42,521 nucleotides of DNA. Origin: Sphingomonas segetis (lineage in GTDB: Bacteria > Pseudomonadota > Alphaproteobacteria > Sphingomonadales > Sphingomonadaceae). Location: the NCBI RefSeq assembly GCF_009720245.1, contig NZ_WJSQ01000005.1, forward strand, positions 1 through 42,521, written 5' to 3'. Below the pieces are notes generated by a model that worked only from the letters and a program-made list of their open reading frames with translations, ran no database searches and had not been told where the DNA came from. Below are positions 6,122 through 22,479 of this stretch, piece after piece (position 1 is the stretch's first letter; each line of letters starts with the position of its first letter). The translations under genes were made by a program, and so were the position numbers.

Positions 6122-9100
6122 CTAATTCCGACGCCCGATGGAGTCGTTTAGTGAGGCACATGCGGCCGGTTTGATGCCTTCGATGCGAACGCGCCGATCC
6201 TGCCTCAGGTCGCGCGCATCACGGACCAGAGGCTCCGGGCCGCTGCCCAGCCCGCGCCAGAGCGCGCTGTTGAATGCTTCGCTGTCGAGACGGTCTTCGC
6301 TGGCGAAATTCTGGTCCTTCATCGCCGCTGCCCAGTATCCCGCATCGTGATTGCTGCAGTCGGTTGCCGGCGATCGGCTCGCAACGAATCGTTCGGCAGG
6401 GATCGGCAACTCGGTTGTTCGCAGCACTTCTGCCGCGTCCGCGCGATAACTCCATCGCGACTGGCTGGGATCAAAGATGTCGACCATCGGCATGGCGAGC
6501 GCATCGTTAAAGCCCAGCGGCTCCAAACCGAGCACCGTTTCGATCGTGCGCAGAATGTTGATGGTCGTGTAGCGCGTGGAAACCAGCACATTCTGGCGCA
6601 CATATGGTCCCACCACGAAAGCGAGACTTCGACGGGCGTCGACGTGGTCGGCGCCGTTCTGCGCGTCGTCCTCGATGACGAAGATCAGAGTGGAATCCGC
6701 CGCCTTGCCGCGGGAGATCCGCTCCACGATGAGTCCCAGAGAATAATCATTGTCGGCGATTTGCGTCTCGACCGTGTTCACACCGTCGATCGCCTGGTCG
6801 AAGTCGCCGAAATGGTCGTTCGGCAGGCGCAGCAAAGTGAGCTGCGGAAGCGTTCCCGCCGCCTCTTGCTCGTCATATTCGCGCTGCCATTCGAGCACTC
6901 GCCAATAGTCAGGCAGCTTCATGTCGAACCCACGGAAATAGGGGTCGCTGCGGCCCGCGAGGAGCCGGTCCCCGGCGGTGAAAATCTGCCGCTTCTCCTT
7001 GAAGGGTTCGCGCACGACAGGCACGAAGCCCGGTGCGGCCGCGTCGTAGATACTTGCGTCGGCGAAGCCGTAGTTGCGGACCGAGATGCCCTCGCGGATC
7101 GCGGCGTCCCAGAGAAACCCCTCGTTCGGGCGGTCGTCGTCATCCGGATCCGCGGCAGTGAGCAAGGCCGGTCCCGGCAGGAGATCGGGATCGGGCGACA
7201 GCTTCGGGTTCGTCGCGACGCGTTCCGCGTGTGATTGCTGCGTGTAGATGAAGCGGTCCGCCTCTTCCGCTTCATAGGCAAGCCCGCGGTCCGCATAGTT
7301 TACGGGCGCCGTCTTCTCGATCAGGTCCGTGGCCCGCGCGGCCGTCGACCAGGCCCAACCCGTCGCCGACACTTCTCCTGAATCGTAGAAATTGTCGAGA
7401 GTCACAAACTGGCGGGCAAGGCGGTGATGGTTGGGCGTGAGCGCCCCGCCAAGGATCGCAAGATGCGGGTCGCCGTTCCCGATCTCCAGGTCACCGAGCA
7501 CCTGATCATAGGTACGGTTCTCCTTGATGATGAAAACCACGTGCTTCACGCGCTTACGGATCTCCGCCATCCGCGCGTCAGCCGCTTCGCGTTCCGCCGT
7601 ACCTGGAAGACCGATGTTTTTTGCGACCTGCGAAGTCGCCGCGGCGAGCGCGTGCTGGTCCGGGAAGGGGAACTCGAGGAGGCCCGACTTCTCGAGCTGA
7701 TAAATATACTGGTTGGCCGCGCCGCACGCCTGGGACTGGCCGCGATAGATTGCGAGCTCGGGCGGGCAGCCCTGCTTGTTCGGGCCCGGTGGGCTCTTGC
7801 GGTTGACGACGAAAACCCGGCTCGCCTTCGCATCGGTCGCGACGGAACTCGGGTACCAGCCGGTCGGGATCAGCGCCTGAACCGGATTTGCAGCCTCACC
7901 CGGGTCGACGACAGCAACGGCATTGATTCCGCCGAGCGTCACCAACAAGCGTGAATTGGGTAAGACGGCCAGGCCATTGGGATTGAGGCCCTTCCCGAGT
8001 TGCGGAGCGACCAGTGATTCCGGAAACGCAAGGCGGGGCTCTGCGACAAGATCGCCAGTGCCCAAGTCGATTATCGCCAATCGGTCGGCATTATCTTCAG
8101 TCGCGATCAAGCGCTTCGATGCCGGGTCGACGAGAATCGCCGTGGGCTCGCCGATCGTCGCGACGCGACTGAAAACCTTTATCCGATCGCCTTCGACGAC
8201 AAGCTCGACCAGCTGGCGGTCTCGCGGCGAAGACACCCAGGCGCGACCGCCGTCGACCCACGCGATCGCGAAGGGGAATTCCCCGCCCGGAACGCCCCTT
8301 GCCGACGGATCGATTTTTCCCGGCCTAAGGTCCTGCTCCGCAACAACTTTCCTCGCAGTTAGATCGACGAGGCTGACCGAGTCATTGTAATAATTCGCTA
8401 CCAGCACCCGGCGGCCGTCCGGACTGAAGGCGACGCCGGCGGCCTGCGGACGCACGCCCGCGCCGAGCCCCGCTTTATGCCCGAGAATGACCTTCGCGGT
8501 GAGCCCGAACTTGGAGCCCTGCCGCGTGAAAAGGTACAGCGCGTCATCGACTCCCCCGCCGACGATGAAGGCGCGCCCGTCGGGGCCCCACGAGATCCCT
8601 CCGAAACTGTTCGGCACCTGCACGCTCTCGATCCAACGCGCGTCCTCGCCGTCGATCGCATAGCGGAACACGTATTGTGTGGACTGCCCCTCCGCGACTT
8701 TCCCGTCCATGCGATTGAAGCGATTGAAGCCGCTCGTCAGGATAAGCATTTCGCGCTTGTCAGGGCTCACAGCAACCGCAGCGGCGCCGTCGGCGACGTA
8801 GGACGGATAGGGTCCCGTGTTCACCACCAGCGGGCTAAATCGGGCGCCCGGTGCCGCAAGCGGAGTGATCGCTTGACCCGTCGGCAGGAGCTGCATCGCC
8901 GGTTGAGCGGCAGGTGCGGTCGACGCGAACGCCTCGCACTGGCCCATCGTCCGGAATGCAACGTCCTGCAATTTGACGGCCAAGGGTGGAGCAATGCCGA
9001 GATCTCGAGCGGCGGCCTCGGTTGCTCCAAGCTTTCGAGGGTCCGTGTGCGTGACCGCTGCGAAGATCGTCAGCGCTTCGAGATAATAGCCCTCGTTCGA

Positions 9101-9775
9101 AGCGTGGTAATGATCCGGCGCCCATAGATCGATTTGGCCCGGCGTCAGCCCATCATAGGGGTTGGGGTCGCCGATCTTTTGGGCGATCGCACAATTGAAG
9201 GCCTCACCGACAGGTACGATGCGGCTGATCGAAGGAACGGCCGCTCGCACCTGGTCGTCAGCCTTGCGCAAATCCACGGCCATGCGCTCGACCGGTTGAC
9301 CAGACCAATGATTGCCTTCCGGATATGTGAGATCGGGCCGAGTCCATGTGGCGACGAGGCTGATGTCCACCCGTGGATTGCGTTGACGAAGAAGCGTCGC
9401 GAGACCCTTCGCTGCGGGAATTGTGTCGGAAACGTCTCCGGGTTTGTCGGGGCTCAGCGTGCTGTACTCCTGGAGAACGACCGCATCCCAGGGCCGATCG
9501 ATGACGGTCCGCTTGTTGGCCAGGTGCCAGGCTAATGTCTGGCCGGCCGCGGTTTCGAGCGACACGTTGTAGCGAAGCCCCGCCTCGTCGGCGAAGCGCT
9601 TGAAGAGTGCGGGGACGCCGGCCATCCCGTCACCGTTCAGATCGCTCACACTGCCCGTGCGGTAGGTCATCGCGTCGGAATCGGCCCCGAACGTGAAGCT
9701 GTTGCCGACGAACAGGATCGATCTCGGCGGTTCAGCGGCCACAACGACGGCGGCAGCAAGCAATGCGGTGATCAT
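6122..9775 (-). CDS. Secreted three-part protein: SGNH-like esterase, beta-propeller, alkaline-phosphatase-like phosphoesterase
   Basis: One uninterrupted 1217-residue frame with a signal peptide (about 1-14). Residues 18-260 form an SGNH/GDSL-type hydrolase: nucleophile Ser26 in VGNSFTFG, a LQEYS block at 101-105 and the DxxH pair Asp221/His224 in APDHYH. Residues about 310-660 are YVTN/YncE-like propeller repeats (AVSPDKREMLIL, AFSPDGRRVLVANYYNDSV, GLAVLPNSRLLVT). Residues 744 to about 1120 are a phosphoesterase of the alkaline phosphatase/phospholipase C superfamily, with VVFIIKENRTYD and a downstream IEDDAQNGADHVDARRSLAFVV metal-site block. Propeller plus phosphatase is a known combination; the added esterase is unusual. 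It is the last gene of the leftward operon and probably removes acyl and phosphate groups from the imported glycan. Function is inferred. Confidence 0.85.
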   Translation of the reverse strand: MITALLAAAVVVAAEPPRSILFVGNSFTFGADSDAMTYRTGSVSDLNGDGMAGVPALFKRFADEAGLRYNVSLETAAGQTLAWHLANKRTVIDRPWDAVVLQEYSTLSPDKPGDVSDTIPAAKGLATLLRQRNPRVDISLVATWTRPDLTYPEGNHWSGQPVERMAVDLRKADDQVRAAVPSISRIVPVGEAFNCAIAQKIGDPNPYDGLTPGQIDLWAPDHYHASNEGYYLEALTIFAAVTHTDPRKLGATEAAARDLGIAPPLAVKLQDVAFRTMGQCEAFASTAPAAQPAMQLLPTGQAITPLAAPGARFSPLVVNTGPYPSYVADGAAAVAVSPDKREMLILTSGFNRFNRMDGKVAEGQSTQYVFRYAIDGEDARWIESVQVPNSFGGISWGPDGRAFIVGGGVDDALYLFTRQGSKFGLTAKVILGHKAGLGAGVRPQAAGVAFSPDGRRVLVANYYNDSVSLVDLTARKVVAEQDLRPGKIDPSARGVPGGEFPFAIAWVDGGRAWVSSPRDRQLVELVVEGDRIKVFSRVATIGEPTAILVDPASKRLIATEDNADRLAIIDLGTGDLVAEPRLAFPESLVAPQLGKGLNPNGLAVLPNSRLLVTLGGINAVAVVDPGEAANPVQALIPTGWYPSSVATDAKASRVFVVNRKSPPGPNKQGCPPELAIYRGQSQACGAANQYIYQLEKSGLLEFPFPDQHALAAATSQVAKNIGLPGTAEREAADARMAEIRKRVKHVVFIIKENRTYDQVLGDLEIGNGDPHLAILGGALTPNHHRLARQFVTLDNFYDSGEVSATGWAWSTAARATDLIEKTAPVNYADRGLAYEAEEADRFIYTQQSHAERVATNPKLSPDPDLLPGPALLTAADPDDDDRPNEGFLWDAAIREGISVRNYGFADASIYDAAAPGFVPVVREPFKEKRQIFTAGDRLLAGRSDPYFRGFDMKLPDYWRVLEWQREYDEQEAAGTLPQLTLLRLPNDHFGDFDQAIDGVNTVETQIADNDYSLGLIVERISRGKAADSTLIFVIEDDAQNGADHVDARRSLAFVVGPYVRQNVLVSTRYTTINILRTIETVLGLEPLGFNDALAMPMVDIFDPSQSRWSYRADAAEVLRTTELPIPAERFVASRSPATDCSNHDAGYWAAAMKDQNFASEDRLDSEAFNSALWRGLGSGPEPLVRDARDLRQDRRVRIEGIKPAACASLNDSIGRRN

Positions 9776-9822: not shown

Positions 9823-11115
9823 TCAGCTTATCGGGGAGGCGGCCGTCGGCGGCTCAATCGCGGCTACGCGATTGGTGCGCGCCGCCACTGCAAAGAAGGC
9901 GACGAAAGCATATGCGGCGAGCGGGACGGCAAACGAGGCGCCAAGCCCGAAGCGGTCGGCGATCATGCCGACCGCGATCGGCAGCAGCGCACCTCCGAAT
10001 ATCGCCAGACACAACAGGCCCGACGTCGAGCTCTGCGAAACGCCCGACCGTTCGAGCGTTATCGTGAAGATCGTCGGGAACATGATGGAATTGAAGAAGC
10101 CGATCGCGAGGGCTGCATAGCCGGCAACTGGCCCCTGGCTCGTAAGGACGGTAAAGCAAAGCAGTGCGTTGACGCTTCCGCAGCCCGCCAGCAACCGTGC
10201 CGCCCGGACTTTCGTCAGAAGTATCGTCCCTACCAACCGTCCGCACAGCGCGCCGCCCCAGTAGAAGTTGGCGAGATAGACGCCGGCGGCCTCGAACGGC
10301 AGGCCGAGAACCGAGCGATGATTGAGGAAGTTGATCATGATGCTGCCGATCGACACCTCTGCGCCAACATACAGGCCGATGGCGGCAGCGCCGAACAGCG
10401 CCCACGGCGAGTGCAAGGCTTCGAACGTTCCTGCCGGGGCGACTGTCCGATGGTTCGGAGCTACACGGTCCAGGAATCCGCGCAGTGCGACAAACAAAAG
10501 AAGCAACCCGACCAAGCCCGCAGCCATGATCACGAATGCACGATCGACTGCAGTGAGCACCTCCGCCCGGTGGGCGAGATTCATTGCATGATGCGGAACG
10601 GCGCGCAGCGCAGGATCGCCAAGCATCACCAGAGAGCCGAAATGAACTCCGACGACCACTCCAAGCGAGTTGAAAGCCTGCGCGAAGTTCAGCCGTAGGT
10701 GGCTGTGTTCCGGTGCCCCGAGCTCGGCAGCCAACGGGTTGGCCGCAACCTGCAACGCCGTGAACCCGCCGGCGAGCACGAACAGCGCCGCAAGGATCGG
10801 CCAGAAACTGTCCGCATTCGTGCTGACGACCACGAGGAGGCAGCCCGCCGCCATAATGCCAAGCGACCCGAGGATCATGTCGACCGCTCCGATGCGGCTG
10901 ATCATCCAGGCCGCCGGAAGCGACAGCAGGCCGTAGGCAAGAAAGAAGACGATCTGGGTAAGGAGCGCTTCGGTGTAATCGAGGCGAAAGGCAGCGCGGA
11001 GCGCAACGATTAGCGGATCATTGTTCGATGTGATGAAACCCCAGGCGAAGAACAGGCTTGTGACCGCCGCAAGGGCCAGCAACGTGCGCCGCTTGTCGGG
11101 ATCGGCCGCACTCAC
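9823..11115 (-). CDS. FHS-type sugar:proton MFS transporter
   Basis: A 430-residue, twelve-helix major facilitator resembling the FucP/glucose-galactose family of inner-membrane sugar:H+ symporters. Family-like segments include SLFFAWGFITSNNDPLIVALR in helix 1, the FALGGF-like FVLAGGFTALQVAANPLAAELG, LNFAQAFNSLG and FFNSIMFPTIFTITLE. It would import the sugar released in the periplasm by the glycosidases of the locus. I chose GTG 11113-11115, which overlaps the GH30 stop as GTGA, the coupling used elsewhere in this operon; ATG at 11137-11139 would add eight residues but has no ribosome binding site. The sugar cannot be named from sequence; glucose or N-acetylglucosamine are likely given the glycosidases. 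Confidence 0.88.
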   Translation of the reverse strand: MSAADPDKRRTLLALAAVTSLFFAWGFITSNNDPLIVALRAAFRLDYTEALLTQIVFFLAYGLLSLPAAWMISRIGAVDMILGSLGIMAAGCLLVVVSTNADSFWPILAALFVLAGGFTALQVAANPLAAELGAPEHSHLRLNFAQAFNSLGVVVGVHFGSLVMLGDPALRAVPHHAMNLAHRAEVLTAVDRAFVIMAAGLVGLLLLFVALRGFLDRVAPNHRTVAPAGTFEALHSPWALFGAAAIGLYVGAEVSIGSIMINFLNHRSVLGLPFEAAGVYLANFYWGGALCGRLVGTILLTKVRAARLLAGCGSVNALLCFTVLTSQGPVAGYAALAIGFFNSIMFPTIFTITLERSGVSQSSTSGLLCLAIFGGALLPIAVGMIADRFGLGASFAVPLAAYAFVAFFAVAARTNRVAAIEPPTAASPIS

Positions 11116-12527
11116 TTGCCGCCGCTTCGCGCCTTCCATCGCAACGTCGCTACAGAGTCAACCGGAAGCGCGACTTCGTAACGTTCGCCGTCGAGGGCGA
11201 TCGTCAAGGGGCCTGTTCCAGACTTGCGATGCAGGATGGCCACACGAGTTCCGTCCGGATTGATGAAAGCCGACGCCTCAACCGCCTCGCCTCGCTTCGC
11301 AGTGGCAACGCGATACGCGCCCGGAAGCACGAACCGGCTCGCGTGGCCAAGCACATAATATTCGACGTTGCGGATGATTGCGCCGGTTGACGGATCGATC
11401 GTCACGACGCCGCGGCAATCGCCGCAGCCGCCCGTGTGCGGTCCGTGCTTCGGATCGAGCGCGAGGTTCCAGAGCAAAGTCCCCCGCGACCAGTGATTCG
11501 AAGCGCCGATGATGAGCTTGTCCGTCATCCACCCCAGCACCTCGGCGTACTTCGGCGACCATTGCCCTCCCGAACATTCGGTGACCCACGCATCCTTGGC
11601 CGGATAGGCATCGTGGACCCGCGATTGCGCCGGGACATCGCCTTCGTAGCAATGCCAGGCGACGCCGGAGACATACTGCCGGGCGCGCGGATCCCGAAGC
11701 ACCGTTAGCGGCATCTGCGGATCGTCCCAGTTATGGTCGTAGTCGAGGATCTGGGCCTTCAGGCCGCGCGTGCGAAATGTCGGCCCCACATAACCGCCGA
11801 TGATTACGGCGCGGTCAGGGGAATTTACGCGCATTCCCGGATAGTCGTCGGGTTCGAAATCGGGCTCATTCTGGATCGTGATCATCGACACCGGCACGCC
11901 CTCGCGCCCGAAGCCCTCGACCGTCCGTGCGAGATAGTTCGCAAACGGCTGGTAATATTGCGGCTGGAGCTGCCCGGTGATCAGGCTTCGTGAAGTCTTC
12001 ATCCACGCCGGGGCGCTCCACGGGCTGATCATCACCAGCAGGTCCGGATTGATCGCCAGGGCTTCACGAGTGCGCGGAAGGACGTATTTCTTCGCCGGCT
12101 CAATGGAGAAATGGCGGAGCTCGGGATCGGGCACGTTCCCGGGCGTGTCGTCGTAGCTGTAAGCGCGGGTGGAGAAGTCCGAGGCGCCGACCGTCAGGCG
12201 CGTGAAGGAAAGCCCGAGGCCGCTATTCGCCCGCCCAAACAGCTCGGCCATGATTGCCTTGCGCTTGCTGTCGGGAAGGTTGCTCAGAAGGATGGCGGAT
12301 GCATCGGTCATCGCCGCGCCGAACCCGTGCATCTCCTGGAAACGCTTGGACGTATCGATCGTGACCGCTTCGTCTCCGGCGGCACGCCCGGCCGGGGCCT
12401 GCTGAGGCTGCCGAGCGAGTTTCTGCGCTTCGTCGGCCGTCGTCAGCCACATTTCTGCAGGCGACGGCTTGTCAGCGCAGGCGGCTGCCAACAATGCAGC
12501 GAAAGCGATTGCCGCGAAGCGCCTCAC
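11112..12527 (-). CDS. GH30 glycosidase lipoprotein (glucosylceramidase / beta-1,6-glucanase type)
   Basis: A 471-residue retaining glycosidase of family GH30. The leader MRRFAAIAFAALLAAAC ends in a lipobox with Cys17, so the enzyme is probably membrane-anchored facing the periplasm or surface. Catalytic residues are Glu221 in TIQNEPDFEP (acid/base) and Glu317 in WVTECSGGQW (nucleophile). SDFSTRAYSYDDTPG and ISPWSAPAWMKTS are also GH30 hallmarks. A small C-terminal beta domain (about 390-471) is usual. GTG 12525-12527 is taken as start: it overlaps the halogenase stop (GTGA), has GGAAGAAA upstream and gives a clean signal peptide, whereas the longer frame begins with TTG. GH30 members cleave glucosylceramide, beta-1,6-glucan, xylan or beta-fucosides; the first two groups look closest. 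Confidence 0.88.
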   Translation of the reverse strand: MRRFAAIAFAALLAAACADKPSPAEMWLTTADEAQKLARQPQQAPAGRAAGDEAVTIDTSKRFQEMHGFGAAMTDASAILLSNLPDSKRKAIMAELFGRANSGLGLSFTRLTVGASDFSTRAYSYDDTPGNVPDPELRHFSIEPAKKYVLPRTREALAINPDLLVMISPWSAPAWMKTSRSLITGQLQPQYYQPFANYLARTVEGFGREGVPVSMITIQNEPDFEPDDYPGMRVNSPDRAVIIGGYVGPTFRTRGLKAQILDYDHNWDDPQMPLTVLRDPRARQYVSGVAWHCYEGDVPAQSRVHDAYPAKDAWVTECSGGQWSPKYAEVLGWMTDKLIIGASNHWSRGTLLWNLALDPKHGPHTGGCGDCRGVVTIDPSTGAIIRNVEYYVLGHASRFVLPGAYRVATAKRGEAVEASAFINPDGTRVAILHRKSGTGPLTIALDGERYEVALPVDSVATLRWKARSGGK

Positions 12528-14017
12528 GCCATTTCTTCCGCCGGACAATATTTCCTCACATATTCGTCGTGTGGCGGCATGACATCGACGCAGCGTCCAA
12601 TCGTCGTTGCGATGTTGCCGAGGAACTGCTCGATCTGCGCATCGCTCTTGATCGCGACGAGCGGGTCGTGGCTGCGCGGCACGATGCCCTGTCCGATGAA
12701 CACCTCGATCCAGCTCTCCTCACTGAAAAGCTCTTCGTCCTCCCGAAAAATGCGACCGTTGGAGCACCACAGGTCGATCTTGCGTTGGAGGGTCGCCGGC
12801 AACTCCATCCTCCGACAATGCTCCCAGAAAGGGCCTTCCCGCTCGTTCGCCCAATAATGAAGAATGAGAAAGTCGCGGACGCGCCCCCACTCGAAATCCG
12901 ACTGACGGTTGAACTCGTCGATCGTCGCCTGGTCGGTCTCAGCGTCCGGGAACAGGCGAACCAGCCGGATCGCCGCCGCCTGGACCAGGTGGATGCTGGT
13001 GGATTCGATGGGCTCAAGAAAGCCCGCGGCAAGGCCGATGGCTACGCAATTGCGGTTCCACATCTTGCGCCGCTTGCCGGCGAGGAAACGAAGCTTGTTG
13101 GGGTTGGCGAGTTGCTCGCCGTCCAGATTGGAGAGGAGGAGCTTTTCCGCCGCTTCCTCGTCGAGGTGTTTGCTCGAATAGACGAGGCCGTTGCCGGTGC
13201 GATGCTGGAGCGGAATCCGCCACTGCCACCCGGCATCGCGAGCGGTCGCCCGCGTGTACGGAGTGAGAGGGGCGACGCGGCTGCAGGGCACAGCGATTGC
13301 GCGATCGCACGGCAGCCAATGGCTCCAGTCTTCGTAACCCGTCTTCAGCACCTGCTCGATCAGCAGCCCGCGAAAACCCGAGCAGTCGATGAAGAAGTCG
13401 GCATCGAGATTACGGCCGTCCTCGAGTGTGACGGAAGCGATATCGCCGCTGTCATGCTGAGCGACATCGACGATCTTGCCTTCGGTGCGCCGAACGCCGT
13501 GTTGTTCGGCGAGGCCGCGGAGATATCTGGCGTAAAGCGTGGCATCGAACTGGAAAGCGTGTGCGATATGCCCGATTGGGGATTCCGCCATGTGAGGCCT
13601 GGCATGCATGAATTTGTTCGCAAGGGCCGCAGCGGTATTGATCGAATAATCGGCGAAGTCTCGTGCCCGCCCCCGGTGATGCGCCTGCAGCCAGTAATGG
13701 TGGCAGCGGAGCCATTCCCAGTCTTGCCCGATGATCCCAAATCCGTGGATATAGCTGTGGCCGGGCCGCCACCAATCGACGAACTGTACGCCGAGCTTGA
13801 ACGTGCCCCGCGTGCGCTGCATGAACTCGACTTCATCGAGCTGCACCAACTCATTGTATTTCTTGATTGCGGGGATCGTCGCTTCGCCCACCCCGACGGT
13901 GCCGATCGCTTCGCTCTCGACGACTTCAATGTCGTAGAGACCCTGAAACAGTTTGCCGAACAAAGCGGCGGTCATCCAGCCCGCAGTGCCACCGCCGACG
14001 ATGAGGATTTTTCGCAT
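12524..14017 (-). CDS. Flavin-dependent tryptophan-halogenase-like enzyme
   Basis: A 497-residue protein with all the expected halogenase marks. These are the FAD motif GGGTAGW (8-14), Lys74 in TFKLGVQF matching the catalytic Lys79 of PrnA/RebH, the WxWxIP motif as WQWRIP (264-269), and Glu338 in EPIEST matching Glu346 of PrnA. Such enzymes use FADH2, oxygen and halide to halogenate tryptophan or indoles. No flavin reductase or natural-product genes are near. Instead it sits between GH3 and GH30 in a TonB-receptor operon, a placement known for halogenase-like genes of Caulobacter, Brevundimonas and Xanthomonas relatives, where the real substrate is unresolved. The start is ATG 14017, 11 bp after the GH3 stop. 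Confidence 0.92.
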   Translation of the reverse strand: MRKILIVGGGTAGWMTAALFGKLFQGLYDIEVVESEAIGTVGVGEATIPAIKKYNELVQLDEVEFMQRTRGTFKLGVQFVDWWRPGHSYIHGFGIIGQDWEWLRCHHYWLQAHHRGRARDFADYSINTAAALANKFMHARPHMAESPIGHIAHAFQFDATLYARYLRGLAEQHGVRRTEGKIVDVAQHDSGDIASVTLEDGRNLDADFFIDCSGFRGLLIEQVLKTGYEDWSHWLPCDRAIAVPCSRVAPLTPYTRATARDAGWQWRIPLQHRTGNGLVYSSKHLDEEAAEKLLLSNLDGEQLANPNKLRFLAGKRRKMWNRNCVAIGLAAGFLEPIESTSIHLVQAAAIRLVRLFPDAETDQATIDEFNRQSDFEWGRVRDFLILHYWANEREGPFWEHCRRMELPATLQRKIDLWCSNGRIFREDEELFSEESWIEVFIGQGIVPRSHDPLVAIKSDAQIEQFLGNIATTIGRCVDVMPPHDEYVRKYCPAEEMA

Positions 14018-14028
14018 CGGCCGGCCGA

Positions 14029-15993
14029 TTAGCGACTTTCGACTGGGCAGGCCATGACCGGTTGAGCTTCCGGCAGCCGCCCGAGTGTCGATCGGCTGCC
14101 GAGCGTGAGGCCATAGCCGCGGCGGAACTGTATTCCGCCCTTCTTGGCCAGGCAGTCGCCCGCGGGCCAGTCGAACGGTAGCCGGCCCGTAAACGCAAAA
14201 GCGGGGAGTCCGTCGGGACCGGCGACCAGCATGTCCGCGAGCCCCATTCCCTCGGTTCCCGGGAGCCAGGCGGCGATAAACGCATCGGATCTGTTGATCA
14301 GGTCGTTCGCTGCAACCGGCCTGCCGGAGAACAGCAGCGTCACAACCGGCACGCCCTTGCCGCTCACGCGCGTGAGGGCCGCCAGGTCCGCCGGATAGCG
14401 GCTCGTGTGGCGCACGCTTCTCGGGAAGCTGATGTCGCCGGCGCCTTCAGCGTACGGATTTTCGGCGGCAACCATCACGATGGCACTATAGCCGCCGAGG
14501 TCCGCCACTTTGCCGTCAGGGCTGTAATCGACGTTGCCGGCGCCGATCGTCTTCCGCAACGCCGACAGGAGCGTGTCGGCGTTCGGGTAGTCCGACGTCT
14601 TCGTATTGTCGCCCTGCCACGTCAGGGACCAGCCGCCGGCCTGCATCGGTAGACTGGCGGCGCCCTTGCCGACGACGAGAACCTTGCCGGTGCGCCGCAG
14701 TGGCAGGACGCCGTGATCGTTCTTCAAGAGCACCAGCGATTTGCGGACAGCCTCGCGCGCGAGCATGCGGACCTCAGGAGAGTGCATGACTGTCGCGTCG
14801 GGATGCTGGCCCGTCGCCGGGGAGCTATCGAACAGCCCGGACTCCAGCTTGACCCGGACGATCCGCGACACCGCGTCGTCGATCCGGCTCATCTTGATCC
14901 GCCCGGTCCGCACATCGGCGATCGTCGTGCCGATGAACTTCTTCCAATCGTCGGGGACCATGACGAGGTCGATGCCGGCGTTGATCGCCTGGGGGCAATG
15001 CCATTTGGTGCAGCCCGGCACCTGCTCGATACCGTTCCAATCGCTGACGACGAGGCCATCGAAACCGAGCCGCCGCTTCAGCACGTCGCCGATCAAGTGG
15101 GCGTTGCCGTGCATCTTGCCCCAATGCTTGCCGCTCGCCGTGTCGGTGAAGCTGGAATAGCTCACCATCACGGTCTGAACGTTGGCCATGAGCGCGCCGT
15201 AATAGCCTGCGGCATGCGTCGCCGCGAGATTGGCCTCGCTCGTGCGAGTCTCGCCCTGGTCCTTGCCGTGGAAGGTGCCGCCGTCCCCGAGCCAATGCTT
15301 CGCAGTTGCAAGGACCGACGTGGGCGAACCAAGCTGCCCTTGCAGTCCGCGCACCATGGCTTCGCCATAATCGCGCACGAGCTCGGGATTCGAGCTGTAG
15401 CTTTCGTACGTTCGTCCCCACCTGGGGTTCTGGACCACGGCCAAGGTCGGTGCGAACGCCCAGGTGATGCCGGTCGCTCGGACCTGGCTTGCGGTCGCGC
15501 GGCCGATCCGTCCGACCAGCGCGGGATCGTGCGCGGCGCCGAGCCCGATGTTGTGTGGGAAGAGCGTCGCCCCATAGACATTGTTGTGGCCATGGACCGC
15601 GTCGGTGCCCCAGATCACCGGCACCTTCACCTTCATGTCGGTCGACATGCTCGCGCGGTAGAATGCGTCGGACAGCTTGAGCCAGTCATCGACGCTGGAG
15701 TGCATGTTCATCGACGGCCAAGCGCCGCCGCCATTGAGGATCGACCCAATATAATAGCGGCGAACCTCGTCCGGAGTGACCGAGCGGATGTCAGCCTGCG
15801 TCATCTGCCCGACCTTCTGCTCGAGGGTCATGCCGGCGACGATTGCATGCACGCGCGCGTCGAGCGCCGGATTCCGCGGCGCCGGATTGACCGCCCTGGG
15901 CCAGGGATCAGCGGCCGTCGCCGCGGACGCGAGAAGCGCGCCCGCGACGCACAGCATCACTTTCGGCCGAAAACGACCGGCCAAAGCCTTCAT
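14029..15993 (-). CDS. GH3 beta-glucosidase (periplasmic exo-beta-glucosidase)
   Basis: A 654-residue family 3 glycosidase with a signal peptide (about 1-27, ending ASAATA). The first domain has TLEQKVGQMTQADI, the VIWGTDAVHGHNN loop, NPRWGRTYES, Lys232-His233 in ATAKHWLGDG and the nucleophile Asp318 in VVSDWNGIE. The second alpha/beta domain contains AREAVRKSLVLLKND and ends with the YAEGAGD...LFSGRP region. It resembles the ExoP/plant exo-1,3/1,4-beta-glucanase branch of GH3, which removes glucose from beta-glucan ends. ATG 15993 is chosen because it gives a normal signal peptide; the frame extends back into the receptor gene. It lies 14 bp after the receptor stop and belongs to its operon. 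Confidence 0.92.
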   Translation of the reverse strand: MKALAGRFRPKVMLCVAGALLASAATAADPWPRAVNPAPRNPALDARVHAIVAGMTLEQKVGQMTQADIRSVTPDEVRRYYIGSILNGGGAWPSMNMHSSVDDWLKLSDAFYRASMSTDMKVKVPVIWGTDAVHGHNNVYGATLFPHNIGLGAAHDPALVGRIGRATASQVRATGITWAFAPTLAVVQNPRWGRTYESYSSNPELVRDYGEAMVRGLQGQLGSPTSVLATAKHWLGDGGTFHGKDQGETRTSEANLAATHAAGYYGALMANVQTVMVSYSSFTDTASGKHWGKMHGNAHLIGDVLKRRLGFDGLVVSDWNGIEQVPGCTKWHCPQAINAGIDLVMVPDDWKKFIGTTIADVRTGRIKMSRIDDAVSRIVRVKLESGLFDSSPATGQHPDATVMHSPEVRMLAREAVRKSLVLLKNDHGVLPLRRTGKVLVVGKGAASLPMQAGGWSLTWQGDNTKTSDYPNADTLLSALRKTIGAGNVDYSPDGKVADLGGYSAIVMVAAENPYAEGAGDISFPRSVRHTSRYPADLAALTRVSGKGVPVVTLLFSGRPVAANDLINRSDAFIAAWLPGTEGMGLADMLVAGPDGLPAFAFTGRLPFDWPAGDCLAKKGGIQFRRGYGLTLGSRSTLGRLPEAQPVMACPVESR

Positions 15994-16007
15994 TCGAAAT
16001 CGCCTAG

Positions 16008-18908
16008 CTAGAAGTGGTAACTGGCGCCGAGCAGCCACGACCGTCCGTATTTCTCGACACGCTCCAAGGTCGGAGAATCGTTCACGATGAAGTAAGTCCG
16101 ATAGGGGGAGTTCAGCACGTTGCTGACCTGGAGCAAAATGCCGAGCCCGTTAAGCCTTGAGCCGGGCTGGAACGTGTAGCCGATCTGCGCATCGACTTGT
16201 TCGTCTGGCTGGGTGAGCGGGTGATCAAGGTTCGCAAAGAGTGCGACGACTTCGCCCTCGAACTTCGACCGGTGACGCCACGACGCTCGCGCTTGGAAGC
16301 CGTACCTCTCGTAATAGGCAGTCACATCGTAAACCCATTTGGAGAAGCCAGGCAGCACGTTGTTGGCGAGTTGGTCTGCCGCTGCCTTGTCCAGCTTGTA
16401 GTCGGTGTAGGATATGCTGCCCGTTGCGCCAAAGCCTTCGAGTATGGGCGTCAGCCGCCCGAACTCGAACGCGCCGCTCACCTCGACGCCGCCAACCCAG
16501 CCGCCCTGTCCGTTTGCAGGCGCGCTGAGGGAGCCGATCGGACTGATCGTACATCCGTTACAACTGGCTTGGAGCGTGGCCAGGTCGGCCGGCGGGGCCG
16601 TTATCCCCGTGAAATCGGCGGCGAGAACCTGCGTATAGATGTAGTTATCCAACCACATGTAGAAACCGTGGACGGAGAAATAGCTCGCCTTGCCGCCATA
16701 CCATTCATAGCCGATGTCCAGTTCCTTGGCGCGCCATGGCTCGAGCTTGGGGTTGCCGCCCCCCGCCGACCAGGGGTGGACCTCTACACCCGGGCCGCAA
16801 GGTTGATTGGGCGGGACGATGACCTTGCAAACCGACCCATCGAAGCCGGGAACCAGGTTTGCGCGCATGTCGTCCATGCGCGGTCGAGCCATGACCTTGG
16901 CCACCGCGAAGCGGATGCGGTTGCGGTGGTTGATGTCGTAGAAAAGGTTCAGGCTGGGCAGGATATCGGTGTACTTTGCGCCTTCATTGACGTTGATCAG
17001 CTCAATCGGTGAGACCGCCGTGTTGATACGCAGACCCGAGGACCTCTGCTTCTGCTGGACCACCTGTACGCCGACATTGCCGTGCAGGTCCCCGGAATCG
17101 ATATTCGCCTTCGCCTTCCAGGTGAGGATGTCCTCTTTGATGTCCCACGCCTTGTCGAAGTGGGAGGCGTCTTCCAGCGGAACGATATCGAAAACATTTC
17201 CGTTGTTGACGAGGTCCGTGACCTTGACGCCGAGAATGCTCATATCGCCCGCGAAGCTCAACGACGTCGGGCCCGTCAGGAATTGCGGATCGACCAGGGT
17301 CTGCAGACGATCATTCTTCAGGAAGATGTCGAGCTCGTCGACCCTCTTGTCCTTGTGCCGATGCGTGTAGTCGAGGCCCGCTTCGACCGAGCTGAAGAAG
17401 TTGCCGATTCCCGTCCCTTGAAGGTCCTGCCTGAGCGTCAGATCGCCGGACGACAGCGTCTCCTTGATGTGGGGCGATTTCTTGTGCCCCTCAGACCCGT
17501 AGCCGCCCCAGGCCGAACGGTCGCCAAGGGACACATTGTTCGCATCAGCGTAATCGAGGCCGAAGTTCGTGACTTGCAGGAAGTCGTTATCGGGGATCAC
17601 GCGGTCGTAGCTGTCGAAGACCCGGCCCTGCGAGAAATCGTCGAAGCTCAGCCTGCTGCAGCAGCCGTAACCGCCGAAGAGTTCGATGTCCGTTTCATCT
17701 CGCTTGTTGGTCGAATAGGACAGATCGGCAAGTAAATGGGTCCGCTCTGCAAGGCGGAAATCATTGTTCAGTCCTGCGGAGAAGAGGTGGTCGACGCGCT
17801 TGTTGTCGTTCCACCGCAGAAGCGGCGTGACATTGGTGACATGGTCGGCGACCTGGAACGGAACGCCGTCGCGGGTCTCGGTCTCGACGTCGCTGTAGGT
17901 GACGTTGTCGGTCCAGGCAGAGGAAAACCATTCGGCGCCCCGGGTGGTATTGTCCTGCTTGAACCGGGAATAATAGAGATCGAGCACGGAATGGACGGCG
18001 TCGCTCGGCCTCCATTCCACGGTGCCCGTTATGCCGTCGCGAATATCGCGCGAGTTGGAGGCACGCACTTCCTGGCCCGACAGGACCTGCACCCCGTCTC
18101 CATAATCGGCGTAAAACCAATTCTTGGTCTCGTTGACGTGGCCCGGTGAGTCGAGGTGCGCATAGCTCATCATCCAGCCGAGCGTGCCGGCCTCGTTCTG
18201 ACCGATGTAGCTGGCACTGCCGCGCCAACCATATTTCGAGAAATCCTGATTACGCCCGCCGCCCTGGTCGAGCTGCCCACGCAGGTTTATCGCGATGGCG
18301 CGCTTGCCATATTCGAGCGGCCGAATGGTCCGCAAATCAACCGTGCCGGCGAGGCCCATGCCCGCAATGCTGGCGTCGGGAGTCTTGTAGACCACCACCG
18401 CGCCCATGAGCTCGGAGGGATATTGGTCGAACTCGACCGCGCGGTTGAAACCGGAGCTCGCCTGCTGGCGTCCGTTCAACAGAACCGTTGTAAAGTCGGG
18501 CGAGAAGCCGCGAATCGAGACGATCTCGGCACGTCCCTTAACGCGCTGCGCCGTGATGCCCGGGAGTCGAGCGATCGATTCGGCAATCGAGGTGTCGGGC
18601 AGCTTGCCGATCTCCTCGGCCGAGACGACTTCCACGACGCTGCGTTCCCGTCGCTTGATCTCGATCGAATTCTGCAAGCTGCGGCGAAGGCCGGTGATGA
18701 CGATTGCACCCGGAGGTGCGGGCTGGGTCGCGTCGGGTTGGCCTGGCGTCGTAGCTGCCGGCGGCGGCAGCGGCTGTTGCTGCTGCGGTGCATTCGGATC
18801 GTTGGGGTCCGGGGTCGTCTGCGCGAATGCTGCTGACGGCAGCACGACCAATGACGAACAACCGGCAAGCAAGAGCGCTCGACGCGCTCGCGACGAAGGA
18901 TTCGGCAC
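16008..18908 (-). CDS. TonB-dependent outer-membrane receptor, SusC-like without SusD
   Basis: A 966-residue outer-membrane receptor of the Xanthomonas/Caulobacter carbohydrate type. It has a signal peptide (to about Gln30), a Pro/Gln-rich linker, a TonB-box-like AIVITGLR, and a plug domain with VVEVVSAEEIGKLPDTSIAESIARLPGI, RGFSPDFTTVLLNGR and GAVVVYKTPDASI. The 22-strand barrel closes with LGASYHF. It would carry oligosaccharides into the periplasm using TonB energy. GTG 18906-18908 is chosen as start since AGGGGAG lies just upstream and the signal peptide then begins cleanly; the frame reaches back to 19001 across the LacI operator, which cannot be coding. It is the first gene of the leftward operon and no SusD-like partner is present, as is usual for Proteobacteria. 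Confidence 0.93.
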   Translation of the reverse strand: MPNPSSRARRALLLAGCSSLVVLPSAAFAQTTPDPNDPNAPQQQQPLPPPAATTPGQPDATQPAPPGAIVITGLRRSLQNSIEIKRRERSVVEVVSAEEIGKLPDTSIAESIARLPGITAQRVKGRAEIVSIRGFSPDFTTVLLNGRQQASSGFNRAVEFDQYPSELMGAVVVYKTPDASIAGMGLAGTVDLRTIRPLEYGKRAIAINLRGQLDQGGGRNQDFSKYGWRGSASYIGQNEAGTLGWMMSYAHLDSPGHVNETKNWFYADYGDGVQVLSGQEVRASNSRDIRDGITGTVEWRPSDAVHSVLDLYYSRFKQDNTTRGAEWFSSAWTDNVTYSDVETETRDGVPFQVADHVTNVTPLLRWNDNKRVDHLFSAGLNNDFRLAERTHLLADLSYSTNKRDETDIELFGGYGCCSRLSFDDFSQGRVFDSYDRVIPDNDFLQVTNFGLDYADANNVSLGDRSAWGGYGSEGHKKSPHIKETLSSGDLTLRQDLQGTGIGNFFSSVEAGLDYTHRHKDKRVDELDIFLKNDRLQTLVDPQFLTGPTSLSFAGDMSILGVKVTDLVNNGNVFDIVPLEDASHFDKAWDIKEDILTWKAKANIDSGDLHGNVGVQVVQQKQRSSGLRINTAVSPIELINVNEGAKYTDILPSLNLFYDINHRNRIRFAVAKVMARPRMDDMRANLVPGFDGSVCKVIVPPNQPCGPGVEVHPWSAGGGNPKLEPWRAKELDIGYEWYGGKASYFSVHGFYMWLDNYIYTQVLAADFTGITAPPADLATLQASCNGCTISPIGSLSAPANGQGGWVGGVEVSGAFEFGRLTPILEGFGATGSISYTDYKLDKAAADQLANNVLPGFSKWVYDVTAYYERYGFQARASWRHRSKFEGEVVALFANLDHPLTQPDEQVDAQIGYTFQPGSRLNGLGILLQVSNVLNSPYRTYFIVNDSPTLERVEKYGRSWLLGASYHF

Positions 18909-18968
18909 CAGTGTCTCCCCTCTTCCGCCTGTCACGAATGCGCGCGACAAGCCGCGTTCCCACTCTCC

Positions 18969-18984
18969 ATGGAAGCGCTTCCAT
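18969..18984. promoter_or_regulatory. LacI-family operator in front of the receptor operon
   Basis: ATGGAAGCGCTTCCAT is a perfect 16-bp palindrome with the central GCGC core typical of LacI-family operators (compare TGGGAGCGCTCCCA of CelR). It lies 60 bp upstream of the chosen receptor start and downstream of the lacI-type gene. A TTGACT on the minus strand at 19009-19014, in the last codons of the regulator gene, could be the -35 of the controlled promoter; no clear -10 is seen. A near copy stands before the GH20 gene. Confidence 0.85.
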
Positions 18985-19002
18985 TTTCGTGCGGCAAACA
19001 TC

Positions 19003-20040
19003 TTAGGGAGTCAAGAACTCCGGCGGCGGCGACGTCGATTGGCGGACGATGAGTTCAAAAGGCAACGCATCGTAGTGCGGCGCACCGTTCGACTGGCTCT
19101 CGGCGAGAAGGTGAACCGCGCGCTCGGTCAGCTCCTTGATGGGCTGACGGATGGTTGTCAGCGGCGGCCAGACAATCTCGGACATTGGCGTGTCATCGAA
19201 CCCCGTAACCGAAATCACACTCGGGATGTCCAGATGCGCTCGGTGTACTGCGAGCATGACTCCGGCAGCCATGTCGTCGTTCGCGCAGGCGATGGCCGTC
19301 ACTTTGCGGTCGCCGAGGAGTTGCTCTCCGGCCTCCACCCCCGATCTGAACGTGAAGTCGCCGATGCTCGTCCAGGGCTCATCCTCTATGCCGGATTCCC
19401 TAAGCGCTTCCCGGAAGCCATCGTAGCGAAGCGCCGCGGCGCGGTGTTCTGCGGGTCCATTCACGAAACCGACGCGTCGATGACCGAGCGATACGAGATG
19501 CTGCGCGATAGCGTGTCCGGCCGCGCGCTCGTCGATTCCGACAGCCGTTACCACGTCGCGCGCGCGCTCCCCCGCAGATACGGCGACCACTTGAACGCCT
19601 GCCCGTTGTGCCGCTTCTATGAACTCGACGTCATCGGACAATGGCGGGGACAGAATGAGTCCGGTGGGCCGTTCGCGGTCGAGGATGGATGCGAGTAGGC
19701 GCAGGCGATTGGCGTCATCCGGGTCGACCGCGCGCGTGACGAGATCGAAGCCGAGCGAGGAACATCCGCGCAACGCGCCAAGCTCGAGTCCAGCGTTGTA
19801 GTAACTGTTCGGCTGAAGGTTGGGACTGTGGGCGTGGATCAGCATGATCTGCGTCCCCATCCCACTCGCAAGCGCCCGCGCCTGGCGGTTGACCGAATAG
19901 CCAAGTTCCTCGACCGCGCGCCTGACTCGGTCGCGCGTTTCCGGACGAACATTCGAGCCGTTGTTGAGGACGCGCGAGACGGTGACGCGCGCGACCCCGG
20001 CCACCTTGGCGACGTCGTCGATAGTCGAATTCCGCTTCAT
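19003..20040 (-). CDS. LacI-family transcriptional repressor of the glycan locus
   Basis: A 345-residue LacI/GalR regulator. The N-terminal helix-turn-helix and hinge helix read STIDDVAKVAGVARVTVSRVLNNGSNVRPETRDRV ... NRQARALASG. The periplasmic-binding-protein-like domain follows (about 60-340) with SLGHRRVGFVNGP, AIACANDDMAAGVMLAVHR and VTGFDDTPMSEIVWPPLTT. The start is ATG 20038-20040; upstream codons are weak (TTG). It sits between the two divergent glycosidase arms, and both arms have a matching operator, so it very probably represses them until an inducing sugar binds. Regulator and receptor genes are transcribed in the same direction, so the receptor arm may also receive read-through from it. 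Confidence 0.92.
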   Translation of the reverse strand: MKRNSTIDDVAKVAGVARVTVSRVLNNGSNVRPETRDRVRRAVEELGYSVNRQARALASGMGTQIMLIHAHSPNLQPNSYYNAGLELGALRGCSSLGFDLVTRAVDPDDANRLRLLASILDRERPTGLILSPPLSDDVEFIEAAQRAGVQVVAVSAGERARDVVTAVGIDERAAGHAIAQHLVSLGHRRVGFVNGPAEHRAAALRYDGFREALRESGIEDEPWTSIGDFTFRSGVEAGEQLLGDRKVTAIACANDDMAAGVMLAVHRAHLDIPSVISVTGFDDTPMSEIVWPPLTTIRQPIKELTERAVHLLAESQSNGAPHYDALPFELIVRQSTSPPPEFLTP

Positions 20041-20125
20041 CGCGCGCGAGCGTGGCAAGCGTTTGGTCTGTTCGCAACGGCTTCAACGGGCTTGCCAGCA
20101 GTGGAAGCGTCACCCTAACAATGAA

Positions 20126-20143
20126 AATGGAAGCGCTTTCATT
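20126..20143. promoter_or_regulatory. LacI-family operator in front of the GH20 operon
   Basis: AATGGAAGCGCTTTCATT is an 18-bp palindrome with one mismatched pair and shares 15 of 16 bases with the site at 18969. It ends 9 bp before the GH20 start codon, so bound repressor would block the promoter and ribosome binding region. TTGCCA (20092-20097) and AACAAT (20117-20122), 19 bp apart, may be the promoter. A half-site TGGAAGCG lies at 20102-20109. The site is also 86 bp upstream of the regulator's own start, so autoregulation is possible. Confidence 0.85.
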
Positions 20144-20152
20144 TGGATCCAG

Positions 20153-21670
20153 ATGGTGCAGATCGTACGAGGCTTGTTGATCCTTTTGGCGCTGTGTCTG
20201 GGCGCGCCTGCAGCCGCTGCGCCTCCCGCCTTGATTCCCATGCCATTGGCTGCCGTTTGGCATGACGGGGAAGTCCGGATTGGGGCCGACACAGTCGTCG
20301 AAGGACGCGGCGAGGCTGCTTCGACCGCCGACTATTTGGCCCGGGAATTGGGGCTGAAATCGAAGCGCGGCGGGCCCTCGAGAATCCAGCTTTCGCTGGT
20401 GCCGACGAGCAAGATCGCGAACCCCGAGGGTTACTATTTGCGCGCGACCGGCAACGAAGTGCTGATCGAAGCATCCGATCCGCGCGGGCTATTCTATGGA
20501 GCGCAGACCCTTCGCCAGCTCGTCACGACCAAGTCCGCGTCCCGCACGGTTCCGAACGTAGAAATCAATGACTCGCCCCGCTTCCGCTGGCGCGGATTGT
20601 TGATCGACCTCGGCCGTCACTTCTTCGGCAAGCAAACGCTGTTCAAGATCATCGACGAGATGGCGGCGTACAAGCTCAACGTCCTCAAGCTTCACTTGAC
20701 CGACTATCAAGGGTGGCGGCTGGAGATCCCCGCTTATCCCAAGCTGACGCAAGTCGGCTCGCTGGTCGACGGCAAGCCGCAATATCTCACGACGGCCGAC
20801 GTGCGCGAGATCGTGCAGTACGCCGCGGAGCGCCACATCATGGTCGTGCCAGAGATCGAGATGCCGGGCCATGCCGGAGCCGCTGCCCGGTCCTATCCCG
20901 AGTTTTTCAATAAGACCGGCGACGCGTTCAATCCGGCGTACCCGAAGACTTACGATTTCGTTCGGGGCGTTCTCGCCGAAGTCGCCCGGCTTTTCCCCGC
21001 CCCGTATGTGGATTTCGCAGGGGACGAGGTTGGCGACGCGTGGGAGGGAATGGCGGATGTCGATCGGCTCAAGGCCGAGCACGGTCTAAAAACCTCAAAC
21101 GACGTTCAGGCCTATTTCGGACGCAGGGTCGTTGCGATCATCGAAGGTCTCGGCAAGCGGCCGATGGCATGGGATGACCAGGTCGATGCCCATGCGCCCA
21201 ATAGCGTGGTCATCCAGTGGTGGCGCAGGGACAAGCCGGAGGTGCTCAAGACCGCTGCAAAAGAGGGCCACGACCTCGTGATTTCACCGGCCGATCAGCT
21301 CTATTTCGACTATCACCAGGGTCCAGGCGAGCCGGGGGCGCCGTGGGAAGGAAACAAGGGCGGCCCGCAGTCGATCGGCAAGATGCTGGCGTGGGAACCG
21401 ATACCCGGCGACTTCACGCCGGAGGAATCCTCTCGCGTGCTGGGCATCGAGGCCTGCGTCTGGACGGAATTCATCGCGACTGAGCGGTATCTGCAGTTCA
21501 TGACCTTTCCACGACTGCTCGCTCTTTCGGAGATTGCATGGCGCCCCAAAGGCCAGCGCGACGAAGCCGAGTTCACGAAGCGCCTGGAGCCACATATCGA
21601 AGCGCTTCGCGCGAGAGGCATCAACGCGAGACGGGGTGAATGGGACGCTTATGAGTTCATCACGAACTGA
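20153..21670 (+). CDS. GH20 beta-N-acetylhexosaminidase
   Basis: A 505-residue exported family 20 glycosidase with signal peptide (about 1-23, GAPAAAA). A GH20b-type N-terminal domain (about 25-140, with LIPMP and GLFYGAQTLRQL) precedes the barrel: SPRFRWRGLLIDLGRHF, LKLHLTDYQGWRLEIPAYPKLT, PEIEMPGHAGAA and the catalytic pair Asp291-Glu292 in VDFAGDEVGD. GH20 enzymes remove terminal beta-GlcNAc or GalNAc by substrate-assisted catalysis. ATG 20153 is chosen over the longer frame because the latter runs through the LacI operator; GGA lies six bases before it. It heads the rightward operon. Chitin-type oligosaccharides or another amino-sugar glycan are likely substrates. Confidence 0.92.
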   Translation: MVQIVRGLLILLALCLGAPAAAAPPALIPMPLAAVWHDGEVRIGADTVVEGRGEAASTADYLARELGLKSKRGGPSRIQLSLVPTSKIANPEGYYLRATGNEVLIEASDPRGLFYGAQTLRQLVTTKSASRTVPNVEINDSPRFRWRGLLIDLGRHFFGKQTLFKIIDEMAAYKLNVLKLHLTDYQGWRLEIPAYPKLTQVGSLVDGKPQYLTTADVREIVQYAAERHIMVVPEIEMPGHAGAAARSYPEFFNKTGDAFNPAYPKTYDFVRGVLAEVARLFPAPYVDFAGDEVGDAWEGMADVDRLKAEHGLKTSNDVQAYFGRRVVAIIEGLGKRPMAWDDQVDAHAPNSVVIQWWRRDKPEVLKTAAKEGHDLVISPADQLYFDYHQGPGEPGAPWEGNKGGPQSIGKMLAWEPIPGDFTPEESSRVLGIEACVWTEFIATERYLQFMTFPRLLALSEIAWRPKGQRDEAEFTKRLEPHIEALRARGINARRGEWDAYEFITN

Positions 21671-22457
21671 CATGCTCTCCCCAATCACCGAGCGCACAGC
21701 GCCGAGCCCCGCGCAGTTCCGCGATGAAATCCTGCCGAGCGGACAACCAGCCGTAATGCGCGGCGTGGCAAATGATTGGCCCCTGGTCGTCGCCGCGCAT
21801 CACGATTCGCACACGGTCATGGCGTTGATGGCGGCGACCGCGAACGGCCGCCTGGCCAAGGTGCTTCGGGCCGACCCGGCGCAGCAGGGCCGGTTCCACT
21901 ACGCAGATGACAGTTATGCGATGAACTTCACCCGCGGAGAGGGCAATGTCGCGGGGATCCTAGCGGGACTGCGCGAGCAGGAGAACAGCTACCAACCGTT
22001 CGCGATGGCAGCGCAGAGCATGATCGCGGAACATTATTTTCCAGGGTTCGCACAGGCGCATCCAATGCCCTTGGTTCCTCCTTCGGCGGAGCCACGCCTA
22101 TGGATCGGCAATGCCGCGAAGGTCGCGACCCACAACGATCCCATCGAGAATGTCGCTGTCGTCGCCGCGGGACGCCGGCGCTTCACGCTGTTCCCGCCAT
22201 CGGCAGAGCCCGATCTTTACCTGGGTCCGCATGACCCGACCCCCGCCGGAGCGCGGATCAGCATGGTGCATGTGACCGCGCCCGACTTCGACCGATATCC
22301 TCGGTTCGCTTCAGCGCTCAAGGTCGCGCAGGAAGCGGAACTGCGGCCCGGCGATGCCATCTTCATTCCGCGCGACTGGTACCATCATGTCGAGGCGATC
22401 GAGCGCTTGAACGTACTCGTGAACTATTGGTGGGACGAAAGCAAAAGCGACGCATAG
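21651..22457 (+). CDS. JmjC/cupin-like (cupin_8) putative Fe(II)-dependent oxygenase
   Basis: A 268-residue protein related to factor-inhibiting-HIF/JmjC-type hydroxylases. The core has LPSGQPAVMRGVANDWP near the N-terminus, then LWIGNAAKVATHNDPIENVAVVAAGRRRFTLFPP, where His-Asn-Asp forms the HxD iron motif, and LRPGDAIFIPRDWYHHVEAI, which supplies the distal His. All three metal ligands are therefore present. The ATG at 21651 (overlapping GH20 by 20 bp, GGGA upstream) is used; ATG 21672 directly after the GH20 stop is equally possible. It lies between GH20 and GH3 in the rightward operon. Similar cupin-like genes accompany TonB receptors and halogenase-like genes in other alphaproteobacteria and Xanthomonas. 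The substrate is unknown. Confidence 0.82.
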   Translation: MSSSRTDMLSPITERTAPSPAQFRDEILPSGQPAVMRGVANDWPLVVAAHHDSHTVMALMAATANGRLAKVLRADPAQQGRFHYADDSYAMNFTRGEGNVAGILAGLREQENSYQPFAMAAQSMIAEHYFPGFAQAHPMPLVPPSAEPRLWIGNAAKVATHNDPIENVAVVAAGRRRFTLFPPSAEPDLYLGPHDPTPAGARISMVHVTAPDFDRYPRFASALKVAQEAELRPGDAIFIPRDWYHHVEAIERLNVLVNYWWDESKSDA

Positions 22458-22479
22458 GACTGCGCCAGGGGGAGATCTC

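Follow-up and report, generated by a model that had tools for sequence, protein, structure and literature searches.

The stretch analysed here (the window) is one entire contig of the draft assembly of Sphingomonas segetis (NZ_WJSQ01000005.1 in GCF_009720245.1; 42,521 nucleotides out of a 2.85 Mb draft in 328 contigs), and it carries a gene whose predicted product joins two proteins that relatives encode separately. An earlier note, made from the letters of the window, had described the product as one secreted polypeptide of 1217 residues combining an SGNH-like esterase, a beta-propeller and a phosphoesterase. The frame is continuous from ATG to stop on the minus strand, a strand that the note had not named (Table 1), and is the only match to its own sequence in the source genome. 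From N- to C-terminus the product is predicted to consist of a leader, a DUF4886-type SGNH esterase, a YncE-like propeller and a PF04185 phosphoesterase. The three parts are recovered by Pfam (DUF4886 and PF04185) and by the NCBIfam propeller repeats, the leader expected of a secreted polypeptide is present in the sequence, and the residues picked out in the note are confirmed (S26 within GNS, D221 and H224, KENRTYD at 751-757 and DDAQNGADHVD at 1036-1046). The gene for a major facilitator superfamily (MFS) transporter ends 47 bp upstream on the same strand, which puts the fusion gene at the end of a run of genes with a TonB-dependent receptor and glycosidases, as had been claimed.

Table 1. 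Features of the fusion gene and its neighbours in the window. GH, glycoside hydrolase family.
Feature	Position	Strand	Basis and remarks
Fusion gene	6122..9775	minus	1217 aa, read from residue 1 at 9775 down to the last base of the stop at 6122; open frame from ATG to stop
Putative signal peptide, about residues 1-14 (MITALLAAAVVVAA)	9734..9775	minus	Read from sequence and homologous N-termini
DUF4886-type SGNH esterase domain, residues 15-280	8936..9733	minus	Pfam, alignment, PDB profile match 4i8i
Fusion joint, residues 277-299	8879..8947	minus	Natural C-terminus of esterase and remnant of second gene's signal peptide; alignments, three-frame check
YncE-like beta-propeller, residues 309-704	7664..8851	minus	TIGR02276; model; 3vh0; seven blades expected from homology
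AlkP-like phosphoesterase domain PF04185, about residues 740-1130	6386..7558	minus	Pfam, conservation, 2d1g profile match
MFS sugar transporter, GluP/FucP-like below cut-offs	9823..11139	minus	Pfam, NCBIfam; directly upstream of fusion gene
GH30, closest among solved structures to endo-beta-1,6-glucanase BT3312	11112..12548	minus	PDB, NCBIfam
Tryptophan-halogenase family flavoprotein	12524..14017	minus	Pfam
GH3, best NCBIfam match exo-beta-1,3/1,6-glucosidase	14029..16038	minus	Pfam, NCBIfam
TonB-dependent receptor	16008..19001	minus	Pfam, NCBIfam
LacI-family regulator	19003..20058	minus	Pfam
Divergent GH20, Cupin_8, GH3, GH15-like and GH125-like genes	19961..28573	plus	Gene starts approximate

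Relatives encode the two halves of the protein as separate genes, both of which have a hydrophobic leader of their own, and the joint in the window retains traces of both gene ends. The esterase part finishes at about residue 280, close to the stop of the bare esterase genes in two genomes of the same genus (G054 and G047), and after the joint the segment FASTAPAAQP-AMQLLPTG aligns with the leader tail of the second protein and the start of its mature part (FAASSNAAEP-SRQLLPTG in G024, also of the same genus). On inspection by eye, all three frames across the joint are free of stops and lack a second hydrophobic leader, neither the start codon nor the hydrophobic core of which survives in any frame. 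For this reason the loss of a stop or a single frameshift would be inadequate to produce the joint, whereas a deletion would be adequate, and deletion between neighbouring genes is the best explanation that the sequence offers. Since the second signal peptide has gone, the esterase's leader would have to export both halves. An artefact in which a frameshift or lost stop joins two genes was ruled out on the same by-eye evidence, the absence of a second leader in any frame. Misassembly, which the earlier note had named together with read-through as a possible refutation, or sequencing error might be suspected in a draft of 328 contigs whose joint recurs in no second genome. However, the joint is in frame and falls at the gene ends, and a single base error would not be sufficient to remove the second leader, making an error at the joint unlikely and a chimera of two genes very improbable.

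The fusion was searched for in samples of the genus, family and order, which overlap and include the source genome; scoring in the family and order samples was limited to two candidates from each genome. The source genome gave the only full-length match in each sample (1/71 genomes of the genus, 1/298 of the family and 1/396 of the order), while matches of any kind were present in 12, 44 and 70 genomes, respectively. Both halves occur as separate genes within one genome in G024, G047, G203, G223, G462, G470 and G542. Among named genomes, the matches in the best 80 of at least 577 related loci all begin at residue 263 or later, and no esterase lay near the propeller-phosphatase in any of these 80 loci within the available flanks, which reached 7 kb at most and were frequently shorter. 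None of 22 plasmid records covered 80% of the query. A candidate second fusion, open frame 1573 of G024, was shown to be two genes; the long frames of G470, G134 and G559 resemble extensions rather than fusions on inspection by eye, a check that covered these three among the genomes with long frames, which also include G250, G454, G456 and G495. The idea that the three-part architecture is common was thus set aside, there being no full-length match beyond the source genome in the three samples, and the architecture search suggested in the earlier note found no esterase in front of a propeller-phosphatase elsewhere in the genomes searched. On these comparisons the protein is a singleton fusion rather than an established architecture. 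As a lone fusion of genes kept apart in relatives, it provides no evidence for a long-evolved three-domain enzyme; it is, as far as the sequence comparisons go, a real combination of familiar domains that turned up in none of the other genomes searched.

The esterase half matches DUF4886 (PF16227) with 28.7 bits against a gathering cut-off of 26.7, over residues 84-247 only (profile positions 71-218 of 242), so that the GNS block falls outside the Pfam match. An alignment of 15 esterase sequences, including that of the window, showed S26, G78, Q102, D221 and H224 to be invariant in 15/15. These include the signature of the SGNH clan, namely the catalytic serine in the GNS block, the block II glycine (G78) and DxxH (D221/H224); the position of the block III asparagine seems to be taken by Q102. 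A profile search of the PDB retrieved the DUF4886 structure 4i8i (E 1.9e-4). The single-sequence model of this half is of low confidence (pLDDT, predicted local distance difference test, 52.7; pTM, predicted template modelling score, 0.60) and superposes on 4i8i with Z 9.5 (root mean square deviation, rmsd, 4.1; 203 aligned); it also matches many GDSL esterases, with unrelated rows up to Z 8.4, and Foldseek gave a TM score of 0.34 to the acetylxylan esterase Axe2. Owing to the low confidence of the model and the scores of the unrelated rows, the SGNH fold of the first half is supported by sequence, the structural match being too weak to decide it. The half thus resembles DUF4886 proteins in its serine, glycine and DxxH motifs and in its Pfam and profile matches, and differs from them in being fused to a second protein and placed in a sugar locus. 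DUF4886 is listed without known function in a 2022 review (PMC9487903). A search for viral homologues of the esterase gave 35 stretches that fit a pattern, none of them confirmed. The same esterase family (52% identity to the window's half) also stands in frame with a peptidase M13 in a 935-aa open reading frame of G319 (L056:9106-11910, plus strand), where no second leader was seen and which appears to be an independent fusion.

The second half belongs to a family already annotated in existing records, which bears out the statement that a YncE-like propeller and a phosphatase are a known pairing. Its propeller followed by PF04185 is collinear over about 900 aa with the bifunctional YncE/alkaline phosphatase family, and residues about 285-1217 align in the same order with its members at about 27-75% identity over the matches; records of Paraburkholderia sp. 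PGU19 and Nostoc sp. C057 bear the name 'Bifunctional YncE family protein/alkaline phosphatase family protein'; in contrast to the fusion, none of the matches examined has an esterase in front, and the relatives inspected begin with their own leader. Among the matches listed, the family extends over Sphingomonas, Caulobacteraceae, Acidobacteria, Verrucomicrobia, Nostoc, Paraburkholderia and Hymenobacter. The YVTN propeller repeats (TIGR02276) score 35.4 bits against a cut-off of 27.85; YncE itself (NF052280) scores 16.1 bits where 400 are needed. The model computed for residues 286-1217 from a 53-sequence alignment reaches a mean pLDDT of 88.2 and a pTM of 0.91, and its propeller superposes on E. 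coli YncE (3vh0) with Z 32.7 (rmsd 3.0, 313 aligned), with many other propellers scoring within 2, so a YncE-like fold is predicted by the model.

The phosphoesterase domain matches PF04185 with 29.3 bits (cut-off 23), the best stretch being only the 22 positions 743-764, and PF04185 was matched by 48/48 scanned members of the propeller-phosphatase set at E 0.01. Seven residues (E752, N753, D757, S803, D1036, D1037 and H1044) are identical in 53/53 aligned propeller-phosphatases; we take them to be the metal and nucleophile residues, with S803 presumably the nucleophile as in acid phosphatases of the same kind. In a profile search of the PDB the best solved relative was the acid phosphatase 2d1g (E 4.7e-9), with which the ENxxxD and DD...DHV motifs align, but only as two short stretches; we take 2d1g to be Francisella AcpA, a protein that presumably has neither propeller nor esterase. 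Neither the phosphocholine-specific phospholipase C family (TIGR03396; 15.2 bits against 580 needed) nor the Burkholderia-type acid phosphatase family (TIGR03397; 14.5 against 362) was matched at its threshold, and the fold search with the whole model was dominated by propellers, with no phosphatase among the matches listed. The substrate of propeller-phosphatases was not the subject of any title found in the open-licence literature. Two further loci, L060 and L043, have a propeller-phosphatase gene in the vicinity of TonB receptors and of GH43 or GH39 genes, which hints at wider glycan substrates.

Fungi and lichens contain the sugar polymer beta-1,6-glucan, and the genes of the window suggest that the fusion belongs to a locus for the utilisation of this glucan. 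The minus-strand operon reads LacI, TonB receptor, GH3, halogenase-like, GH30, MFS and fusion gene, and thus holds the gene set expected of such a locus (GH30, GH3 and TonB receptor), with the GH30 and GH3 scores under their equivalog cut-offs. Among solved structures the GH30 matches 5ngk (BT3312) with 244.5 bits, the next structure scoring 138.5. A known counterpart is the beta-1,6-glucan polysaccharide utilisation locus of Bacteroides thetaiotaomicron (BT3309-3314), which is reported to degrade fungal 1,6-beta-glucan (PMC5481569). The two share a GH30 nearest BT3312, a GH3 and a TonB-type receptor; in contrast to the Bacteroides locus as described there, the window showed no SusD-like gene in the scanned neighbourhood, has a LacI instead of a SusR-type regulator, and adds a halogenase-family gene and an MFS transporter. 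The pustulan used with the Bacteroides locus was about 2% O-acetylated, and the word 'esterase' is absent from the main text of that paper (PMC5481569); the occurrence of pustulan in lichens is noted in another article (PMC7816849). Lichen glucans of the pustulan type with O-acetyl groups appear in the title of a cited work. From this gene content the locus is probably one for beta-1,6-glucan utilisation. PADLOC gave no match that would suggest an anti-phage role.

GH30 homologues, taken as matches with E at most 1e-60, are present in 9/71 genomes of the genus and 5/298 of the family, the source genome being counted in both, or 13 genomes in all. All six core genes (LacI, TonB receptor, GH3, halogenase-like, GH30 and MFS) surround the GH30 in 10/13; G047 lacks LacI and receptor on the available stretch, where the contig starts inside GH3, G032 has no MFS match near the GH30, and G125 has neither an MFS nor a first GH3 match and a different gene order. 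In G032 and G035 different frames carry parts of the GH30 match. Directly after the MFS gene, in the place of the fusion, G054 and G047 carry a bare esterase gene, G038 and G069 a GH16 identified by Pfam, and G024 a sequence resembling it; in the source genome a GH16 match lies on a different contig. The G024 operon is flanked by a divergent cluster of GH20, esterase, an opposite-sense Cupin_8, propeller-phosphatase and GH15-like genes, and homologues of some of the window's divergent genes adjoin the same operon at L040, L140 and L052. Within the genus an esterase homologue occurs in 6/9 GH30 carriers vs 5/62 other genomes (Fisher p 2.2e-4) and a propeller-phosphatase in 3/9 vs 0/62 (p 1.5e-3), p-values that are too small because the genomes are related and the source genome is counted. 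The LacI-TonB receptor-GH3-tryptophan-halogenase-GH30-MFS cassette itself recurs (window 9823-20058, L040, L052, L140 and L166-L174), with accessory genes that vary among GH16, esterase, GH125-like and GH20.

We give about even chances to the proposal that the fusion arose by deletion between two neighbouring genes of a locus for beta-1,6-glucan utilisation, which now encode a single exported protein. Because it sits in such an operon, the DUF4886 half would most simply be an acyl-clearing esterase for the GH30 and GH3: it may remove O-acetyl or other acyl groups from a beta-1,6-glucan such as O-acetylated pustulan and thereby let these enzymes cut the polymer. The phosphoesterase may detach groups that contain phosphate, either on the glucan itself or on attached glycans of fungal or lichen walls, with the propeller as a structural or binding platform, and the fusion would hold both enzymes at the same place and dose, with no new chemistry needed. 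In fungal walls mannoprotein is joined to the glucan. The fuller version, in which one exported enzyme takes the O-acyl as well as the phosphate-linked groups off the beta-1,6-glucan of fungi or lichens, or off the mannoprotein bound to that glucan, we regard as rather improbable. The earlier note had envisaged a glycan or glycolipid with acyl and phosphodiester decorations; its substrate can be narrowed to that of a probable beta-1,6-glucan locus. That one molecule carries both decorations is only a possibility, most genomes with one half being without the other, and specificity for phosphodiesters over phosphomonoesters finds no support, the best solved relative being an acid phosphatase.

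A number of observations weigh against a joint role in glucan use. The GH30 scores 302.2 bits to NF053856, under the cut-off of 700, and the GH3 247.5 bits to the exo-beta-1,3/1,6-glucosidase family, under the cut-off of 1330 (both NCBIfam). The esterase lies within the locus in only 4/6 of the esterase-bearing GH30 carriers, being about 1 Mb and 35 kb from the GH30 in G069 and G032, respectively; G038, G060 and G035 carry GH30 with no esterase match, and esterase homologues of G069 (L053) and G017 (L054) lie near housekeeping genes such as GCS2. Other propeller-phosphatase genes stand near GH43 or GH39, or near PLD, M16 peptidase and methyltransferase genes, and these differing neighbourhoods make the tie of this family to the present glucan weak.

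Such a scatter would also be expected had the fusion been an accident without joint function, in which two gene neighbours with unrelated substrates were joined and the product merely tolerated by selection. This is a serious rival, to which we assign something under one chance in three. It accords with the occurrence of the fusion in a single genome, with the predominance of genomes that have one half and lack the other, and with the lack of an esterase within the available flanks of the 80 best propeller-phosphatase loci; the M13 fusion of G319 adds an unrelated partner for the same esterase family, and therefore the esterase's C-terminus can accept a partner without a shared pathway. Against an accident, however, G024 has the two genes close together alongside the same operon, propeller-phosphatases within the genus are confined to GH30 carriers, and both sets of conserved residues are intact in the fusion. 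Decay of either half was considered and not seen. The window breaks 2/55 columns invariant in the other 14 esterases (relatives 0-5) and 8/252 columns invariant in the other 10 propeller-phosphatases (relatives 0-18), and dN/dS against same-genus relatives is 0.10-0.14, a pairwise value that averages mostly pre-fusion time and cannot reveal selection since.

Two further alternatives concern the substrate. The esterase alone may be the glucan accessory, with the phosphoesterase acting as a phosphate scavenger of the acid phosphatase kind. The closeness of 2d1g, the wide distribution of the family in bacteria and the differing neighbourhoods among the few scanned all fit such a role; the placement of the phosphoesterase in a sugar locus, both in the window and in G024, does not, and we give scavenging, like the accident, something under one chance in three. 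Osmoregulated and other bacterial beta-1,6-branched glucans carry both acyl and phospho-groups, and the resemblance of the GH30 and GH3 to beta-1,6-acting enzymes would suit a substrate of this type as well. However, the GH20 and GH125-like neighbours, together with the GH16 of relatives, would accord better with a fungal wall that contains chitin, mannan and beta-1,3-glucan, and a bacterial glucan seems quite unlikely.

The fuller version, with one enzyme acting on both kinds of group, would, if true, make DUF4886 a family of beta-1,6-glucan O-acetyl esterases, a first function for this domain, and would give the propeller-phosphatases a first glycan substrate. Through the fusion and its unfused relatives, both families are tied to a locus for which beta-1,6-glucan (pustulan, partly O-acetylated) is the obvious candidate substrate, and a plain assay could therefore probe a function for each; the best use of the fusion may be as a pointer to the functions of both. 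It also appears to be a clear case of gene fusion with the unfused forms surviving in the same genus.

Among the divergent genes, the GH15-like protein (24708-26600) has only a marginal Pfam match, found no related structure in the PDB at E 1, and may be a divergent glycosidase; the GH125-like protein has weak PDB matches only. Cupin_8 (JmjC-like) genes recur among the glycan genes, at 21534-22457 and 28629-29639 of the window, and a homologue lies between the esterase and propeller-phosphatase genes of G024.

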